Part shown: positions 4,317 to 36,189 of the stretch, piece after piece
Layout: the number at the start of each line of letters is the position of its first letter
Numbering within the stretch: position 1 is the stretch's first letter
Assembly: GCA_017561825.1 (NCBI GenBank)
Contig: JAFZBK010000038.1
Location: 1 to 39,867 of the forward strand
Length of the DNA: 39,867 nt
From: Prevotella sp.
GTDB lineage: Bacteria > Bacteroidota > Bacteroidia > Bacteroidales > Bacteroidaceae
Direction: 5' to 3'
Position numbers and translations under genes: made by a program
The notes under the pieces: model-generated
The model's database searches: none
What the model was told of the DNA's origin: nothing
Seen by the model: only the letters and a program-made list of their open reading frames with translations

Positions 4317-6530
4317 ATGGAAGCATTAAGATTTCAGGTTGTCGGTGAGGCATTCAAGAAGAAGCCGCTCGACGTAAAAGCACCCGCAGAGAGACCTTAT
4401 GAGTATTTCGGTAAGAAGGTCTTCAACCGCGAAAAGATGTATAAGTACCTGCCCAAGGACGTGTATGAGAAGATGGTCGATGTGATTGACAACGGCGCAC
4501 GTCTTGATCGCGACGTGGCTGATGCAGTAGCAGCAGGTATGAAACAGTGGGCCACAGAGAATGGCGTGACACACTATACACACTGGTTCCAGCCGTTGAC
4601 AGAAGGAACCGCTGAAAAGCACGACTCATTTATTGAACATGACGGTAAGGGCGGTATGGTAGAGGAGTTCACAGGTAAGTTGCTCGTACAGCAGGAGCCT
4701 GATGCTTCATCATTCCCTTCTGGTGGTATCCGCTCCACCTTCGAGGCTCGTGGTTACTCAGCCTGGGATCCCACATCCCCTGTCTTCATCATTGAAGATA
4801 CACTCTGTATCCCCACCGTATTTATTTCTTATAGCGGTGAGGCACTCGACTATAAAGCTCCGCTGAAGCGTGCCCTCCATGCTGTGAACGTGGCTGCTAC
4901 GGATGTGTGCCACTACTTTGATCCTGCCGTGAAAAAGGTACAGAGCAATCTGGGTTGGGAACAGGAGTATTTCCTCGTGGATGAAGGTCTTTATGCTGCC
5001 CGTCCTGACCTGTTGTTGACTGGTCGTACCCTGATGGGACACGACTCTGCCAAGAACCAGCAGATGGATGACCACTACTTCGGATCTATTCCTGAGCGTG
5101 TGGCAGCCTTTATGCGCGACTTGGAGATTCAGGCACTGGAATTAGGTGTGCCCTGCAAAACACGTCATAATGAGGTGGCACCGAACCAGTTTGAGTTGGC
5201 ACCGATCTTCGAGGAGACCAACCTCGCAGTGGATCATAACATGATGCTGATGTCGTTGATGAAGAAGGTGGCCCGCAAGCACGGATTCCGCGTACTGTTG
5301 CATGAGAAGCCCTTTGCAGGCATCAACGGTTCCGGTAAGCATAACAACTGGTCACTCTCTACCGATAACGGTATCCTGCTCCATGCACCTGGTAAGACAC
5401 CAGAGCAGAACCTGCGCTTCGCTACATTCATCGTGGAGACCCTGATGGGTGTCTATAAGCACAACGGACTGCTGAAGGCCAGCATCATGTCGGCCACCAA
5501 TGCTCACCGTCTGGGTGCCAACGAGGCTCCACCAGCCATCGTATCGTCATTCCTCGGCAAGCAGGTAAGTGAGTTGCTCGACCATATTGAGACAGCCGAC
5601 AAGGACTTCCTGTCTATGACTGGTAAGCAGGGACTGAAGATGGATATCCCCGAGATTCCTGAACTGCTCATCGACAATACCGACCGTAACCGTACATCAC
5701 CCTTCGCCTTCACAGGTAACCGCTTCGAGTTCCGTGCTGTAGGTTCTGAGGCTAACTGCGCCAGCGCCATGATCGCCCTGAACAGTGCTGTGGCTGAGGC
5801 ATTGGTTGACTTCAAGAAACGTGTGGATGCAAAGATTCCTGAGTTCGAGAAGAAGCTCGCTGGTACAGAACACAGTGCGAAGTATCATGCCATCATCGAC
5901 GTGCTGCGCGAGGATATCAAGACCTGTAAGCCCATCCGCTTCGACGGTAACGGCTACAGTGACGAATGGGTGATTGAAGCTGAGAAGCGCGGACTTGACG
6001 TTGAGAAGAGTTGTCCGAAGATCTTCGAGCGCTACCTCGACAAGGAGAGCATTGACATGTTCGAGAGTCTGGGTGTGATGACCAAGAAGGAGTTGGAGGC
6101 TCGTAACGAGGTGAAATGGGAGACCTACACGAAGAAGATCCAGATTGAGGCTCGTGTACTGGGTGATCTCTCCATGAACCACATCATCCCTGTGGCCACT
6201 CACTACCAGAGTGCGCTGCTGAAGAATGTGGAGAACATGACCGACATCTTCCCCATCGACAAGGCCGAGAAACTGAACGCACGAAATATCAAGATCATTG
6301 AGGAGATTGCCGAGCGCACCTCTGCCATCGAGAAAGGTGTGGATGAATTGGTTGCTGCCCGTAAGCTCGCCAACAAGATCGAAGGTGAACACGAGAAGGC
6401 CATCGCCTATCACGACAGCGTGGAGCCGAAACTCGATGAGATCCGCTACCAGATTGACAAACTGGAGCTGATCGTGGACGACGCTCTCTGGCCACTGCCG
6501 AAGTATCGCGAGTTACTCTTTATACGATAA
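4317..6530 (+). CDS. glnN: Glutamine synthetase type III
   Basis: 737 residues from the ATG at 4317 (the frame is open further upstream, but that part overlaps the promoter). GSIII makes glutamine from glutamate, ammonia and ATP in the cytoplasm and is the main GS of many Bacteroidales. Family signatures seen: the N-terminal FGKKVFNREKMYKYLP, the substrate region GIRSTFEARGYSAWDP, KTRHNEVAPNQFELAPIFEE, HEKPFAGINGSGKHNNWSLS and DNTDRNRTSPFAFTGNRFEFR with catalytic residues. Its length, much above GSI (about 470), is typical of GSIII dodecamers. Single-gene unit with its own promoter and terminators. Confidence 0.95.
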   Translation: MEALRFQVVGEAFKKKPLDVKAPAERPYEYFGKKVFNREKMYKYLPKDVYEKMVDVIDNGARLDRDVADAVAAGMKQWATENGVTHYTHWFQPLTEGTAEKHDSFIEHDGKGGMVEEFTGKLLVQQEPDASSFPSGGIRSTFEARGYSAWDPTSPVFIIEDTLCIPTVFISYSGEALDYKAPLKRALHAVNVAATDVCHYFDPAVKKVQSNLGWEQEYFLVDEGLYAARPDLLLTGRTLMGHDSAKNQQMDDHYFGSIPERVAAFMRDLEIQALELGVPCKTRHNEVAPNQFELAPIFEETNLAVDHNMMLMSLMKKVARKHGFRVLLHEKPFAGINGSGKHNNWSLSTDNGILLHAPGKTPEQNLRFATFIVETLMGVYKHNGLLKASIMSATNAHRLGANEAPPAIVSSFLGKQVSELLDHIETADKDFLSMTGKQGLKMDIPEIPELLIDNTDRNRTSPFAFTGNRFEFRAVGSEANCASAMIALNSAVAEALVDFKKRVDAKIPEFEKKLAGTEHSAKYHAIIDVLREDIKTCKPIRFDGNGYSDEWVIEAEKRGLDVEKSCPKIFERYLDKESIDMFESLGVMTKKELEARNEVKWETYTKKIQIEARVLGDLSMNHIIPVATHYQSALLKNVENMTDIFPIDKAEKLNARNIKIIEEIAERTSAIEKGVDELVAARKLANKIEGEHEKAIAYHDSVEPKLDEIRYQIDKLELIVDDALWPLPKYRELLFIR

Positions 6531-31963: not shown

Positions 31964-32863
31964 TTAAACAATAAGCAAACAGTTCAACTTGTTCCAGAAT
32001 GCATTTATGGTGGTTCGAACAGGGTAATCGGAATCTGGTTCGTGGGCCATGACACCTGTAGCCTCATAGTGCTGCTGACGGAGCAGCTTGATGGCATCGG
32101 CACATTTCAAGGTGTCAATAGTCTGGGCATAGTACATCAAGAGTGTCGGGTAAAGGTGGACGAAACCATCATAGATGTGCTGGGCCATCTCCTGATGCTC
32201 ATCGTCCAAATGAAGTTGCTCGCCCTGTATCAGACGATTGCGAAATTGAGCAAGGTTATACTTCATACGATGAACCGTGACACGATAGGAGATGTCTGTC
32301 ATTCCAAGCGCTACAGCAACATCCCCATTGGGCAACGCTTTCTGTTTGTTTAGCATAGTGAGTAGTGAACGCAAGAAGATAAAACGACTACGCGGATAAA
32401 AGATCTGGAGTGCGTAGGCTATCAAGTGGGCTACTACATGGAGTTTCTGCTCATCTGTCAGAGGTGACATTGGTGACGGGTCGTCAGACAGATAGTCTAT
32501 GGCGATGTCTGCAAAAGCAAACTTTTCCTCCTCTTTTGTGCGATTACTGAGATAATTGCGGAAGGTTTTCAATAGCCACACCTCGAAAGATTCCTTGTTC
32601 TTGATGCTCTGCAATGACTGATATGGGAAGTGTGTTAGCCCTTTCCCACCTTCTCGTAGATAGAGAAAGAAATCCGCTACGATATCCTCGAAATCATCAA
32701 GTAGGTGGTAGTGATATGACGAGTAGATTTCGTGCAATTGTCTGTCCAAACGATGGTGCAGCAAATAGTAAACGGCTTCATCGCCTTGCTTGGCATCATG
32801 CAGGATGAGGTCAACAAACTTGGGAGTGGGGATAGCTGCAATCTTATCGGGGTGGTCCTTCAT
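31964..32863 (-). CDS. Sigma-70-like (ECF-type) RNA polymerase sigma factor
   Basis: 299 residues from the ATG at 32863; earlier ATGs in frame overlap the promoter. A region-2-like part (about 50-130: YYLLHHRLDRQLHEIY, LDDFEDIVADFFLYLRE, FEVWLLKTFRNYLSNRTKEE) matches the core-binding and -10-reading segment, and about 170-225 (PRSRFIFLRSLLTMLNKQ, NGDVAVALGMTDISYRVTVHRMKYNL) reads as region 4 with a helix-turn-helix. A C-terminal 70-residue tail is unusual for ECF factors and may sense a signal. Its own promoter is of housekeeping type. Two nearby operons share a non-housekeeping promoter that it may recognise (32947, 36152). Confidence 0.65.
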   Translation of the reverse strand: MKDHPDKIAAIPTPKFVDLILHDAKQGDEAVYYLLHHRLDRQLHEIYSSYHYHLLDDFEDIVADFFLYLREGGKGLTHFPYQSLQSIKNKESFEVWLLKTFRNYLSNRTKEEEKFAFADIAIDYLSDDPSPMSPLTDEQKLHVVAHLIAYALQIFYPRSRFIFLRSLLTMLNKQKALPNGDVAVALGMTDISYRVTVHRMKYNLAQFRNRLIQGEQLHLDDEHQEMAQHIYDGFVHLYPTLLMYYAQTIDTLKCADAIKLLRQQHYEATGVMAHEPDSDYPVRTTINAFWNKLNCLLIV

Positions 32864-32885
32864 TTTATTATTCTGCTCTAATGTT

Positions 32886-32894
32886 GCAAAGGTA
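32886..32894 (-). promoter_or_regulatory. Promoter -7 element of the sigma-like gene
   Basis: TACCTTTGC on the minus strand, 22 nt before the ATG at 32863. Confidence 0.6.
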
Positions 32895-32946
32895 GTCATT
32901 TTTCTGCAAAATACATAAAAAAATGACAAAATATCTTCTCCCAAAG

Positions 32947-32984
32947 TGTAACATTTTTGGATTTCTCATACTATAAAGACAGAA
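32947..32984 (+). promoter_or_regulatory. Non-canonical promoter, copy 1 (534-residue gene)
   Basis: TGTAACATTT (32947-32956), 10 nt, CATACTATAA (32967-32976), 4 nt, AGAA. TGTAAC resembles an ECF-sigma -35 element and ACTATA a -10 element, 17 nt apart. The ATG at 33010 is 33 nt past the second block. No TAnnTTTG element is present. Confidence 0.7.
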
Positions 32985-33009
32985 AGGATTAATTAAATAG
33001 AATTATAGT

Positions 33010-34614
33010 ATGGAGAAACATAAAAGAAACAAGATGTATCAACCTTTGATGAGGAGGTTACTGGGGCTTGGACATAACAACCGCTATTCAGTGAGCGACC
33101 AAGAAAGTCAAGCCCTTCTCGTGAGCATTAAGCATCTTTTGGATGTCTTTGCACCAATTGGTGATGATTACCTTCATGGACTATGGATTGAAGTACCTCG
33201 TGGGAAACTATCGGATTGGGTGGCTTTCAAGGAAATGAAAGAGTTGGGAGAGTTGAACACATGGAAGGAGTATCAAGAACTATGGGAGTCGGAATTCCCT
33301 CGCAAAAGATATTGGTATTTCCTCTCGGTGAGTCAATACCGGGGCCATACTTACCTCCATATTACTGATCATGACCATCGGTGGGGTATTATTCACGATG
33401 ACCCAAATTGGGATCATCATAGCATTGGGCCTTTGGATTGGTATCTGGAGCCGCTGTTTACGTTCTTGATAGAGAAAGTCTCTGATATTGTCAAAGATAC
33501 TGTTGCCTATAATCAGTATGTAGAAGATAATCTGCCCAAGCGACAGCGAACAGGCAGGATTTCGCGTAAGGATATGAACCGCATCGTTCCTTGGCAGAGG
33601 CGTGTGCCTAAGCAATTGGAGAAAGGTTTGCAGATACTACGGGAATGTATCGATAACGAGGATATCTACAGAAAGATGAAGGATGGGGATGTCCTAAACG
33701 AGTTGCCGTCTTCTTATCGTGAGCCATTGGACACGATGAGCATTCGTATCTACAGCAAGTATTTCCGTGTAGCTCATGAGGCCTTTGAATCGCAACACGA
33801 TTACCTCTGGGATGAAAAGGATAAGGAAAGGCATCTGGAAATGCGCAAAGAAGATGCTATGTTGGATGATATTGCCTACTATCGTCGGCATCAGCATGGT
33901 CGGCATGGAGAAATAACTGATGAGACAGATTTTGACAGTGTTAAAGCCTTTAATGATATGGCCTATGATCATTATGGAGAACTGGGACTTTCGCGGATGA
34001 ACGTACATGCTACGGATTATTATACTCCAGGCAAGTGGCTCATCACCTTCGGTTTTAGTTATTCAGCATATTTGGATGATGCGGTGGACATCGCAGTAAC
34101 ACTTTATGAGTCAGGCTGTCCACTAATTGTACACGATGCCCAAAAGATGCTGGATGTACTGGAGGAGAAGGATTATGTGAGGCTCACGCCACACACTTTC
34201 CATGATTATTTCTGCCATCATGACGAGGGAAGCGTTTTTGACTTGCCGTATGAGTGCTATCTGGGGACTGACAATGAGATTACCAGAGAGCAGTATGATG
34301 AGATCATTTCGCTGGCAAAATGGAAGCCTGAGGTGCAGGTAGCGCTGGATGAAACGGTGCCACTTGAGGATTCTGTGTATGACCCTATTCGTGATGAAGT
34401 ACCCGAACCGCTAACGGTTTGTGGGATACTTGCACGGCTATATGAGAAGTATGGAATAGGCGTGGGAATCGGCAAGTATCGTGACCATCAGCACATCTAT
34501 CTTTATGGTTGGAAGAAAGGCGATGAAAAGATTCAGATGAAGGATAAGAAGTTTATGTCGGCAAACAAGGCAATGTTGGCGATATTGAGAATGTTTGCGA
34601 GAGAAGTAAAATGA
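33010..34614 (+). CDS. Large unknown protein of the putative sigma regulon
   Basis: 534 residues, no signal peptide or membrane segment, rich in Asp, His, Tyr and Trp. Visible blocks: YQPLMRRLLGLGHNN at the start; RYWYFLSVSQYRGHTYLHI with a GPLDWYLEPLFTFLIEKV segment (residues 95-165); a helical middle (IYSKYFRVAHEAFESQHDY); WLITFGFSYSAYLDDAVDIA around 345; and a C-terminal RLYEKYGIGVGIGKYRDHQHIY. I do not recognise a family. It is divergent from the sigma-like gene, 146 nt apart, and has the shared non-canonical promoter. Confidence 0.75.
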   Translation: MEKHKRNKMYQPLMRRLLGLGHNNRYSVSDQESQALLVSIKHLLDVFAPIGDDYLHGLWIEVPRGKLSDWVAFKEMKELGELNTWKEYQELWESEFPRKRYWYFLSVSQYRGHTYLHITDHDHRWGIIHDDPNWDHHSIGPLDWYLEPLFTFLIEKVSDIVKDTVAYNQYVEDNLPKRQRTGRISRKDMNRIVPWQRRVPKQLEKGLQILRECIDNEDIYRKMKDGDVLNELPSSYREPLDTMSIRIYSKYFRVAHEAFESQHDYLWDEKDKERHLEMRKEDAMLDDIAYYRRHQHGRHGEITDETDFDSVKAFNDMAYDHYGELGLSRMNVHATDYYTPGKWLITFGFSYSAYLDDAVDIAVTLYESGCPLIVHDAQKMLDVLEEKDYVRLTPHTFHDYFCHHDEGSVFDLPYECYLGTDNEITREQYDEIISLAKWKPEVQVALDETVPLEDSVYDPIRDEVPEPLTVCGILARLYEKYGIGVGIGKYRDHQHIYLYGWKKGDEKIQMKDKKFMSANKAMLAILRMFAREVK

Positions 34615-34676
34615 AAAACAATTAAACTACTCTGGCCAACCTTGGAAGTCAAAGCAAACGATATCTTCTTTTCTGT

Positions 34677-35444
34677 TCATATCTCAATTACTTTGTTGGG
34701 TTCAAAACCATTTGTCAAGTGTTCGTTGTAGTAGATGTATCCGAGTTGGTTGCACACGATTCTTGTGTTACCGATGGTGGCATCGATGTTCGTATGGGAA
34801 TGACCATAGATCCAGACATCGATGCGGGTGTCAGCAATGTAATTACCTAGTTCCGTTGCGAAAGCACCGTTAAGAACGGAACCCATGTGTTGTGCAGCAA
34901 CTACAGATAGGGTTGGCAGATGATGGGTGACAACCACGATGTGTTTGGCCGTACTCTTGTTGACGGCCTGCTTCAGAAACGCGAAACACTTCACGTGCTC
35001 CAGGTTAAAATCATCTGGGGTAAAGCGGTGGCCATTGTACATAATTTGACGGAAGTCGTTCATGCCCCGATGCACATGGAACATGTCCACTTCGGGTATC
35101 CGCGACCAAAGCGTTGTGAGGATGAAATCTGTATCGTCAATATGAACCACTTTATTATAATAATAGCCCACGTTTTCTCTAAACATCCATTGCCAACTTT
35201 CGCCATGAGAGGTCACATCGCTGTTGTTATAGAACTCGTGGTTTCCAGGAACCAGTAGTACCTGCCGGAAACTTTTCGATGCCCAATCCCAGAACCGTTT
35301 CTGTGGGGCGATGATGTCGCGTAGGTAGATTGTATCACCCGCAAGGACTAAGATGTCACCTATTGCCTCAAAGGGAGTAGATTTGATATACCTCGAATTG
35401 TCCCATAACTCCATATGGAGGTCGCTCATGTATTGGATTCTCAT
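34677..35444 (-). CDS. Calcineurin-like metallophosphoesterase
   Basis: 255 residues with the five metallophosphoesterase motifs in order: SDLHMELWD (7-15), LAGDTIYL, PGNHEFYNN, VTHHLPT and GHSHTN near the end. Cytoplasmic, no signal. The substrate is unknown; relatives hydrolyse phosphodiesters, nucleotides or phosphoproteins. Third gene of an operon whose promoter is shared in sequence with the 534-residue gene; start overlaps the upstream stop by 4 nt. Confidence 0.88.
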   Translation of the reverse strand: MRIQYMSDLHMELWDNSRYIKSTPFEAIGDILVLAGDTIYLRDIIAPQKRFWDWASKSFRQVLLVPGNHEFYNNSDVTSHGESWQWMFRENVGYYYNKVVHIDDTDFILTTLWSRIPEVDMFHVHRGMNDFRQIMYNGHRFTPDDFNLEHVKCFAFLKQAVNKSTAKHIVVVTHHLPTLSVVAAQHMGSVLNGAFATELGNYIADTRIDVWIYGHSHTNIDATIGNTRIVCNQLGYIYYNEHLTNGFEPNKVIEI

Positions 35445-35767
35445 TGTTCTGTTTGTTTTAATTTGTTTATTCTGTATATTATTCGTCGTTTGGCATTTTT
35501 GTAAACCTCGGCGTTCTTAAGAATTGTAACACATTCGCGGAATAATTCTCGAGGCATCGGTTTGAAGTCCGCAAATTCACCTATCTTGATGGTAGCCATA
35601 GGGAACACGGATGTAGATACCTTGTCTTTGCCGAGAATGTGCCATCGAACTTTGCAGATTTCGTGACCGCAGACGATTTCTTCTACTTTCAGTACTTCTA
35701 GAAGTATGGGGCTAAGCCTCTCCTTGCGACGATCTTGGTAATATGTGTTGCCTTTCTTGACTCCCAT
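35441..35767 (-). CDS. Unknown small protein, middle gene of the phosphoesterase operon
   Basis: 108 residues, basic (many Lys and Arg), with a strand-rich middle (ILLEVLKVEEIVCGHEICKV in outline, VSTSVFPMATIKIGEF) and a helical Lys-rich tail (KNAKRRIIYRINKLKQ). It looks like a small nucleic-acid-binding or beta-barrel protein but no family is recognised. Gap of 2 nt to the previous gene and 4-nt overlap with the next, so it is firmly in the operon. Confidence 0.7.
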   Translation of the reverse strand: MGVKKGNTYYQDRRKERLSPILLEVLKVEEIVCGHEICKVRWHILGKDKVSTSVFPMATIKIGEFADFKPMPRELFRECVTILKNAEVYKNAKRRIIYRINKLKQTEQ

Positions 35768-35769
35768 AA

Positions 35770-36129
35770 TTATTCTTCTGATTTTTGGTTTGATTCATTT
35801 GCCTTTTCCGCTAGATAATCGTAGAAAACATCTATGTCGCTGATGTTGTATTCTTCCTCATCAATATAATATTTGGCCTCTCCTTTGGGGGCTTCTTCTA
35901 ACCACCATTCCAAATCGTCATCGATTCCTAGTTTATTGAATTCCAAGTTGAACAAGAGACAGAAAGCATATCTTACTGCGATCCACCAGGGCGAGATATA
36001 GAAGGGGGGATACTGTCCTTGTTCATCATCCCAGATAACTTTTAAAGCATCATTTACTTTATCCTCTTTCTCCTGGGCATTCTTTATGAATGTCATTAAT
36101 TCTTTGAATTGTTCACGAGTTGGTGTCAT
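35770..36129 (-). CDS. Unknown acidic protein, first gene of the phosphoesterase operon
   Basis: 119 residues, acidic. N-terminal helix TREQFKELMTFIKNAQEKED, central aromatic stretch YPPFYISPWWIAVRYAFCLL with LFNLEFNKLGIDDDLEWW, and an acidic C-terminal helix (DIDVFYDYLAEKAN). Not a signal peptide; the hydrophobic stretch contains Trp/Arg and is likely buried rather than membrane-spanning. No family recognised. It is transcribed from the non-canonical promoter at 36152-36189 with a leader of about 25 nt. Confidence 0.7.
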   Translation of the reverse strand: MTPTREQFKELMTFIKNAQEKEDKVNDALKVIWDDEQGQYPPFYISPWWIAVRYAFCLLFNLEFNKLGIDDDLEWWLEEAPKGEAKYYIDEEEYNISDIDVFYDYLAEKANESNQKSEE

Positions 36130-36151
36130 AATTGTTCTGCTTTTATCTTAC

Positions 36152-36189
36152 TTCTACCCTTATAGTATGGAAAAAGTGGAAATGTTACA
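36152..36189 (-). promoter_or_regulatory. Non-canonical promoter, copy 2 (phosphoesterase operon)
   Basis: On the minus strand TGTAACATTT (36180-36189), 10 nt, CATACTATAA (36160-36169), 4 nt, AGAA (36152-36155). Same blocks and spacing as 32947-32984; 24 of 38 positions lie in the exactly conserved blocks. The ATG at 36129 is 30 nt past the second block. Confidence 0.7.

Follow-up and report, generated by a model that had tools for sequence, protein, structure and literature searches.

Does the sigma-like gene P0001, on a 39,867-nucleotide (nt) contig of Prevotella sp. (JAFZBK010000038.1, assembly GCA_017561825.1; taken at full length and called the window below), control the two transcription units that adjoin it, and to what end? 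The explanation that we favour, with a probability of roughly two in three, is that P0001 encodes a divergent extracytoplasmic function (ECF)-type sigma factor that switches on both units in a response to nucleic-acid damage, RNA end repair included. On this reading P0001 is an ECF-like sigma whose regulon is small and probably serves nucleic-acid repair. That it reads the promoter motif described here we regard as likely, and RNA-end repair or phosphoester chemistry as the output of the regulon is a roughly even call. Homology, motif linkage and gene content were computed; from them we infer the sigma activity, the reader of the motif, the inducing signal, and the roles of the C-terminal extension and of an AlkD domain found in relatives. 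The features concerned are:

31964 to 32863, minus strand: P0001, ECF-like sigma factor gene, 299 amino acids (sigma2-like domain at about 11-116, low-confidence linker at 117-133, sigma4-like domain at about 136-213; C-terminal extension at 214-299, conserved and mostly helical)
32887 to 32894, minus strand: TACCTTTG, a housekeeping -7-like element of the P0001 gene, read from the sequence and distinct from the motif
32947 to 32984, plus strand: promoter copy 1, with TGTAAC(ATTT) as -35 and CATACTAT(AA) as -10, extended to AGAA
33010 to 34614, plus strand: P0002, 534 amino acids, no family above cut-off
34677 to 35444, minus strand: P0005, calcineurin-like metallophosphoesterase, 255 amino acids (PF00149, 54.4 bits, cut-off 21.5)
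35441 to 35767, minus strand: P0004, 108 amino acids, no family
35770 to 36129, minus strand: P0003, 119 amino acids, no family above cut-off
36152 to 36189, minus strand: promoter copy 2, the same two-block motif with 0 mismatches

The initial annotation had proposed a private regulon of two operons on the strength of a motif, TGTAACATTT-N10-CATACTATAA-N4-AGAA, at 32947-32984 (+) and 36152-36189 (-). Both copies match with 0 mismatches and, as claimed, the motif is seen nowhere else in the window, where no third match exists at ≤3 mismatches and 100 shuffles yielded 0 matches (0 expected). The distances to ATG given there, 33 nt for copy 1 and 30 nt for copy 2, are right when counted from CATACTATAA (35 and 32 nt downstream of CATACTAT), as is the divergent gap of 146 nt (32864-33009). 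TAnnTTTG is the consensus of the housekeeping -7 element, and none lies within 60 nt of either site. A two-block promoter stands beside the sigma gene, and P0001 would be the factor that recognises it.

The genome to which the window belongs (2,976,949 bases in 69 contigs, 88% complete) was scanned for the core, TGTAAC-N14-CATACTAT, with 17 matches at ≤2 mismatches and 25 in the reversed control. Two matches are exact (both window copies), one has one mismatch and 14 have two; the two-mismatch sites are chance-like because the reversed control gives 25 matches. The one-mismatch site, C57:7695 (L003 1501-2719), lies ∼75 nt upstream of a Fic-domain gene. This copy belongs to a different class (TGTAGCATTT..., 1 mismatch), and the Fic gene downstream also has a winged-helix match. 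The proposed two units are retained, while the limit to two is weakened by the Fic site, itself a weaker one of a different class, and the exclusive tie of the motif to the sigma did not hold. The idea that TGTAAC serves ECF genes of this genome generally as a -35 was not supported: it occurs within 260 nt upstream of 2 of 17 sigma genes, with ∼1 expected. The 17 are what remains of 26 sigma-type places after removal of the three with the best scores and of six that lack a locus.

Linkage of the motif to the sigma gene

Of 398 genomes of the genus, 20 contain a P0001 relative, the genome of the window included (G042, G130 and G373 by weak matches, and with a broken gene in G213), and in 13 loci of named assemblies, the titles of which are mostly ruminant or other gut metagenomes. 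In these 13 loci (210,765 bp) the motif at ≤1 mismatch has 13 sites in 8 loci and the reversed control 0, a count in which L042 and L044 are near-identical, so that these two, like sites within one genome, are non-independent. The same pattern gave 67 sites in 47 of the 398 whole genomes, with 1 in the reversed control. L046 carries a 3-mismatch form and L048 a longer-spacer form, and among 12 further sigma loci (L086-L088, L090-L098) a site by the strict or looser patterns is present in L086, L091, L092, L094, L096 and L097. At order level a profile search recovered P0001 relatives in 5 of 344 genomes, own included; both full-length homologues recovered outside the genus, which belong to two other families (G598 and G690), are accompanied by perfect copies (2 and 1, respectively), and the copy in G690 lies ∼1 kb from the remote P0001 homologue.

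A longer, class A pattern was counted across the genus genomes as well. At ≤3 mismatches it occurs in 16 of the 398 genomes (control 0), that is, in 7 of 20 sigma-positive versus 9 of 378 sigma-negative genomes (p 2.3e-6), and at ≤2 mismatches in 5 of 20 versus 5 of 378 (p 4e-5), some of the matches at 2 and 3 mismatches resembling the other class. A chance origin of the motif was rejected by the window shuffles, the own-genome and genus scans, and the class A scan with its controls. The position of the motif is also regular: an ATG of an open reading frame (ORF) of at least 40 amino acids lies 23-41 nt past CATACTAT at 26 of the 28 sites that belong to sigma-bearing loci (exceptions, L043 and L046). 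Such an ATG follows only four (L083, L084 4860, L159, L164) of the remaining 10 of 38 measured sites, a rarity that fits decay where the sigma is absent, although L089 comes from the sigma-bearing G081.

The -10 block tends to vary with the sigma lineage. TACTAT is the -10 at 19 of 22 sites in the sigma group of the window versus 0 of 10 in other lineages (p 4e-6, uncorrected), "other lineages" being a grouping not established as one clade; left out of this count were L039 7054 and L048 (longer spacer, TACTAT), the outgroup L128 (TACTAT) and the two-mismatch L152 site. Looser patterns were used to find the sites of the other lineages, and G119 and G334 had their sigmas assigned by identity only. 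Distant lineages keep TAACATTT or a near form, mostly preceded by TG or CG, with TACTTA, TACATA or TACTAC as -10. The trend backs cognate recognition, judged from sequence, short of proof.

A number of results weigh against this pairing, the non-independent sites and the loose grouping of lineages included. No motif was found in the fetched flanks of L040, L041 and L045 (of the 13 loci), by strict or looser patterns at 6 of the 12 further loci (L087, L088, L090, L093, L095 and L098), or in the vicinity of the partial homologues from G418 and G608. TACTAT is present in the class A copy of G081, though G081 carries a sigma from the other lineages and the copy is followed by no ORF of 40 amino acids, and at other-class sites of G025 and G222. 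The core motif occurs in 37 of the 378 genomes without a P0001 relative, as called with a profile that does recover the gene of the window; the class A pattern is found in sigma-free genomes too (the 9 at ≤3 and 5 at ≤2 mismatches counted above); and in G269, sigma-free and 99% complete, the promoter is intact, such that another factor could read it. Frequent occurrence in front of unrelated genes, which the initial annotation had named as telling against its proposal, is not seen in the own genome but holds in part for the genus, where 47 of 398 genomes have the motif.

These results raise the alternative that another, commoner ECF sigma of the genus reads the promoters, with P0001 a bystander or active elsewhere. 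The genomes with the motif and no P0001, the sigma loci with no site, the 25 sigma-type places of the own genome that score above the TIGR02937 cut-off, and a class C variant of the motif before a canonical ECF gene (L075) would all suit it. Against it stand the motif linkage, the co-occurrence of the class A pattern with the sigma, and the trend at -10, together with the downstream TAnnTTTG, which is mostly missing from sigma-adjacent sites (present within 60 nt at 2 of 22 window-group and 2 of 10 other-lineage sites) as opposed to 11 of 24 other-class sites. Two of the sigma-free genomes moreover look decayed: the AlkD of G074 apparently ends with what is left of the fusion junction, and the gene behind the motif copy of G269 begins phosphoesterase-like and continues with RadC-like sequence, for which reason loss is suggested in both. 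We consider the alternative unlikely and retain P0001 as the probable reader of the motif.

Other classes account for 24 of 29 sites inspected, and the genes behind them resemble, from their sequence, RhuM, Bro-N, AlbA, AbiE or ECF genes; Pfam bore this out for Bro-N (L056) and for the canonical ECF (L075; PF04542, PF08281), with ORF6N (L063) just below its cut-off. An element that resembles a promoter and recurs throughout the genus, often as TGTAACATTTTCG...TTTGCATACTAT, is seen in L058-L080 and L113-L117 before genes taken to be RhuM-, Bro-N-, ORF6N-, AlbA- and AbiE-like, of which Bro-N and, weakly, ORF6N have Pfam support. Often accompanied by a downstream housekeeping -7, it is perhaps a shared switch for defence-like genes.

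P0001 and its fused relatives

Profile comparison identifies P0001 as a distant ECF-type sigma (95%, E 2.5e-8), and structure comparison agrees. Both a sigma2 domain fold and a sigma4 helix-turn-helix domain were found by these comparisons, in line with the region 2 and region 4-like segments noticed from the sequence; alignment to a non-sigma family, named beforehand as an outcome that would speak against the proposal, did not result. Of the 23 family members, 19 give a TIGR02937 match at E ≤0.01. P0001 itself reaches 15.6 bits (cut-off 42.9), and because its score falls under the cut-off it is termed ECF-like here. This score counts against the assignment, as do a Pfam scan of P0001 with no sigma family match and a Foldseek search in which sigma factors lead the 46 matches and none reaches E ≤0.001. 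The family profile, run against PDB sequences, returned one weak, unrelated match. The P0001 group would accordingly constitute a sigma factor family overlooked by the family models used here.

The low scores bear on a second alternative, namely that the element is an operator, to which P0001 or some other regulator would bind as ordinary DNA-binding proteins do, and no -35/-10 promoter at all. In its favour, P0001 scores under the sigma models, and a 28-nt element plus part of the leader are conserved beyond a usual promoter. The two-block geometry with 16 nt separating TGTAAC and TACTAT, the ATG that follows most sites at 23-41 nt with no TAnnTTTG between, and the sigma2-like domain of P0001 are contrary to it, and we hold it to be quite improbable beside a sigma-dependent promoter.

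The C-terminal extension of P0001, given as 70 residues in the initial annotation, is rather ∼85 (214-299) and is hardly reached by any of the matches obtained; it may be the switch in stand-alone sigmas. No anti-sigma family was found among the four scanned window neighbours, P0002-P0005. Autoregulation was rejected, 0 of 13 loci having a motif-like site in the 300 nt upstream of the sigma or fusion ORF (TAnnTTTG is present in that stretch in 4 of 13), and the P0001 gene of the window has no motif copy upstream on its own strand. A mobile origin of P0001 was likewise rejected, with no relative in viral contigs and none in plasmids.

In 15 distinct loci an AlkD-type DNA glycosylase is fused N-terminally to the sigma in an ORF of 550-600 amino acids (cut off by the contig end in L098), and in 13 loci, the window included, the sigma stands alone. 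Both fusions that were scanned, L039 and L042, match Pfam DNA_alkylation (PF08713) at E ∼1e-47; the others were called from frame length and clustering, with printed sequence for seven of L039-L046 and L098. AlkD-type genes also exist elsewhere in the own genome. A tree of the sigma relatives places the window sigma in a 14-row group that holds fused and stand-alone forms (82/100), and the idea that the fusion arose or was lost just once was rejected, since the tree, itself weakly supported, needs 5 changes between the two states. The neighbourhood of fused forms includes genes for AlkZ-related, MGMT-type, superoxide-dismutase and peroxiredoxin proteins, each kind represented by one scanned gene, and a further gene with a weak resemblance, under the cut-offs, to uracil or hypoxanthine glycosylases. 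The fusion suggests nucleic-acid alkylation as the signal. A more specific idea, that the fused form is a damage sensor and switch in one protein, in which AlkD would read alkylated nucleic acid and the sigma would fire an RNA-repair regulon, the window sigma being a split or trimmed form that kept the regulon, is speculative and we think it rather unlikely. In L086 of G348 the sigma (4984-6000) seems to start with the first AlkD residues, and an AlkD end is present at the contig end (8970-9218) in the opposite direction, either a rearranged fusion or an assembly fault.

Genes behind the promoter and a possible damage response

The genes of the two window units recur behind the same promoter elsewhere. 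P0002 homologues are behind it in L049 and L050 and follow another promoter-linked gene in L094 and L096; no P0002 relatives were found in viral contigs. In L042 and L099/L044 a P0003 homologue begins 27-33 nt past the promoter, and P0004 homologues begin 29-38 nt past it in L047, L048, L049, L051 (clustered) and L131 (by sequence), the spacer being 2 nt longer in L048. Homologues of P0002 from L097 and L174 are in a run with phosphoesterases. In L097, beside an AlkD-sigma gene, P0002, P0005 and P0003 homologues are contiguous behind a variant promoter. L174 is an unverified scaffold from human gut; there a P0002 homologue (36%) comes after a P0005 homologue (60%) and a putative second phosphoesterase read from the sequence, and no motif was found near these genes; this gene run therefore links the two window units independently of the motif. 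The earlier claim of a sigma-like gene with a promoter common to both neighbouring operons is thus supported by the linkage, the co-occurrence, the -10 trend (with one clear counter-example) and the L097 and L174 gene runs. P0002, P0003 and P0004, which are uncharacterised, thereby acquire a testable context, and the promoter is clear enough for predicting targets across Bacteroidales.

Other genes at the promoter in relatives may point to repair of RNA. Calcineurin-like phosphoesterases are behind it in L086 and L164, and in L099 after a 44-amino-acid ORF; in L046 and L159 merely the start of a P0005-like frame, read from the sequence, is present. An RlaP nucleotidyltransferase starts 24 nt past a motif copy in L044/L099, with RlaP and an RNA ligase close together in L099, and a partial gene 38 nt past the promoter in L163/L128 has weak DRB0094-ligase and good PHA02142 OB-fold matches. 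An AAA protein follows the promoter in L039. Three points detract from an RNA-repair output: the DRB0094-like fragment (L163) is under its cut-off; the Rnl2 of L099 is above its cut-off but ∼500 nt from the promoter; and in the window RNA repair rests on one phosphoesterase and on what related genomes show, because P0002-P0004 are of no known function. A conserved ORF of ∼44 amino acids (MTYIIQNRI...) opens regulon units in L039, L042, L091, L097 and L099, and with differences in L084.

The output might instead be anti-phage defence or the control of mobile elements rather than general-stress repair, a proposal that is compatible with the favoured explanation. In keeping with it, some motif copies or sigma genes have a TOTE-type primase-helicase, helix-turn-helix (HTH), IrrE-type, integrase-like and RloB/AbiEii-like genes in their vicinity, P0005 has a weak PADLOC match to PDC-S10 (E 5.5e-9), and according to PMC7824862 phage RNA repair counters immune attack on translation. 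PADLOC gave no match for P0002-P0004, RlaP or Rnl2, however, and the AlkD fusion and repair-gene neighbourhood point to chemical damage, so defence appears doubtful as the main role. Beside the sigma regulon, L042 (12395-16907) and L099 (9578-12057) have a TOTE-type primase-helicase (in pieces in L099), an HTH_17 gene and a 438-amino-acid gene of no assigned family.

In the mechanism that we propose, P0001 would be made, probably from its housekeeping promoter, and restrained post-translationally. Once active it would guide RNA polymerase to TGTAACATTT-N10-CATACTATAAG promoters and so switch on P0002 and the P0003-P0004-phosphoesterase unit. In relatives the sigma, often the C-terminal half of an AlkD fusion and near repair genes, would act likewise on the adjoining promoters of phosphoesterases, RlaP and RNA-ligase-type genes, and the likeliest role is a response to nucleic-acid damage, RNA end repair included. 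Such a finding connects sigma factors both with fusions to a DNA glycosylase and with genes of RNA repair.

Comparison with known systems

Ada is a repair protein that doubles as a transcription activator. The fused relatives of P0001 similarly have a repair domain and a transcription factor in one polypeptide, but AlkD is joined to a sigma factor, its sensing is putative, and the window copy is without AlkD. ECF sigmas with regulatory extensions are known from the consulted parts of a review (PMC8999054), and P0001 shares with those described there the sigma2-sigma4 architecture, no recognised anti-sigma and an extra domain that may regulate activity; unlike them, its extension is hardly matched, its sequence falls under the ECF models and its relatives have an N-terminal AlkD. 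In the sections covered of PMC7790460, the rtcBA RNA-repair operon under RtcR-sigma54 responds to tRNA fragments and DNA damage, likewise a case of RNA-repair genes under dedicated control, whereas here an ECF-like sigma is the candidate regulator, with ligases that resemble Rnl2 or DRB0094. The neighbouring RlaP and RNA ligase of L099 resemble the RlaP-RNA ligase repair systems in the material drawn from PMC7824862, although here they are found at sigma-type promoters common to phosphoesterases and uncharacterised proteins. For PSPTO_1043, an ECF sigma of Pseudomonas syringae (PMC5507510), the listed loci include the repair gene phrB; its regulon is one of oxidative stress, however, with no AlkD or RNA-ligase link in the parts of that article covered. 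No AlkD-ECF sigma link or ECF-run RNA-repair regulon was found among the listings of open-licence PMC papers searched.

Distant partial sigma relatives of other families, in L126 (1474-3271) and L127 (1303-3247), each adjoin a putative von-Willebrand-A-like gene. The one in L126 has no Pfam match and a weak match to a cobaltochelatase NCBIfam.

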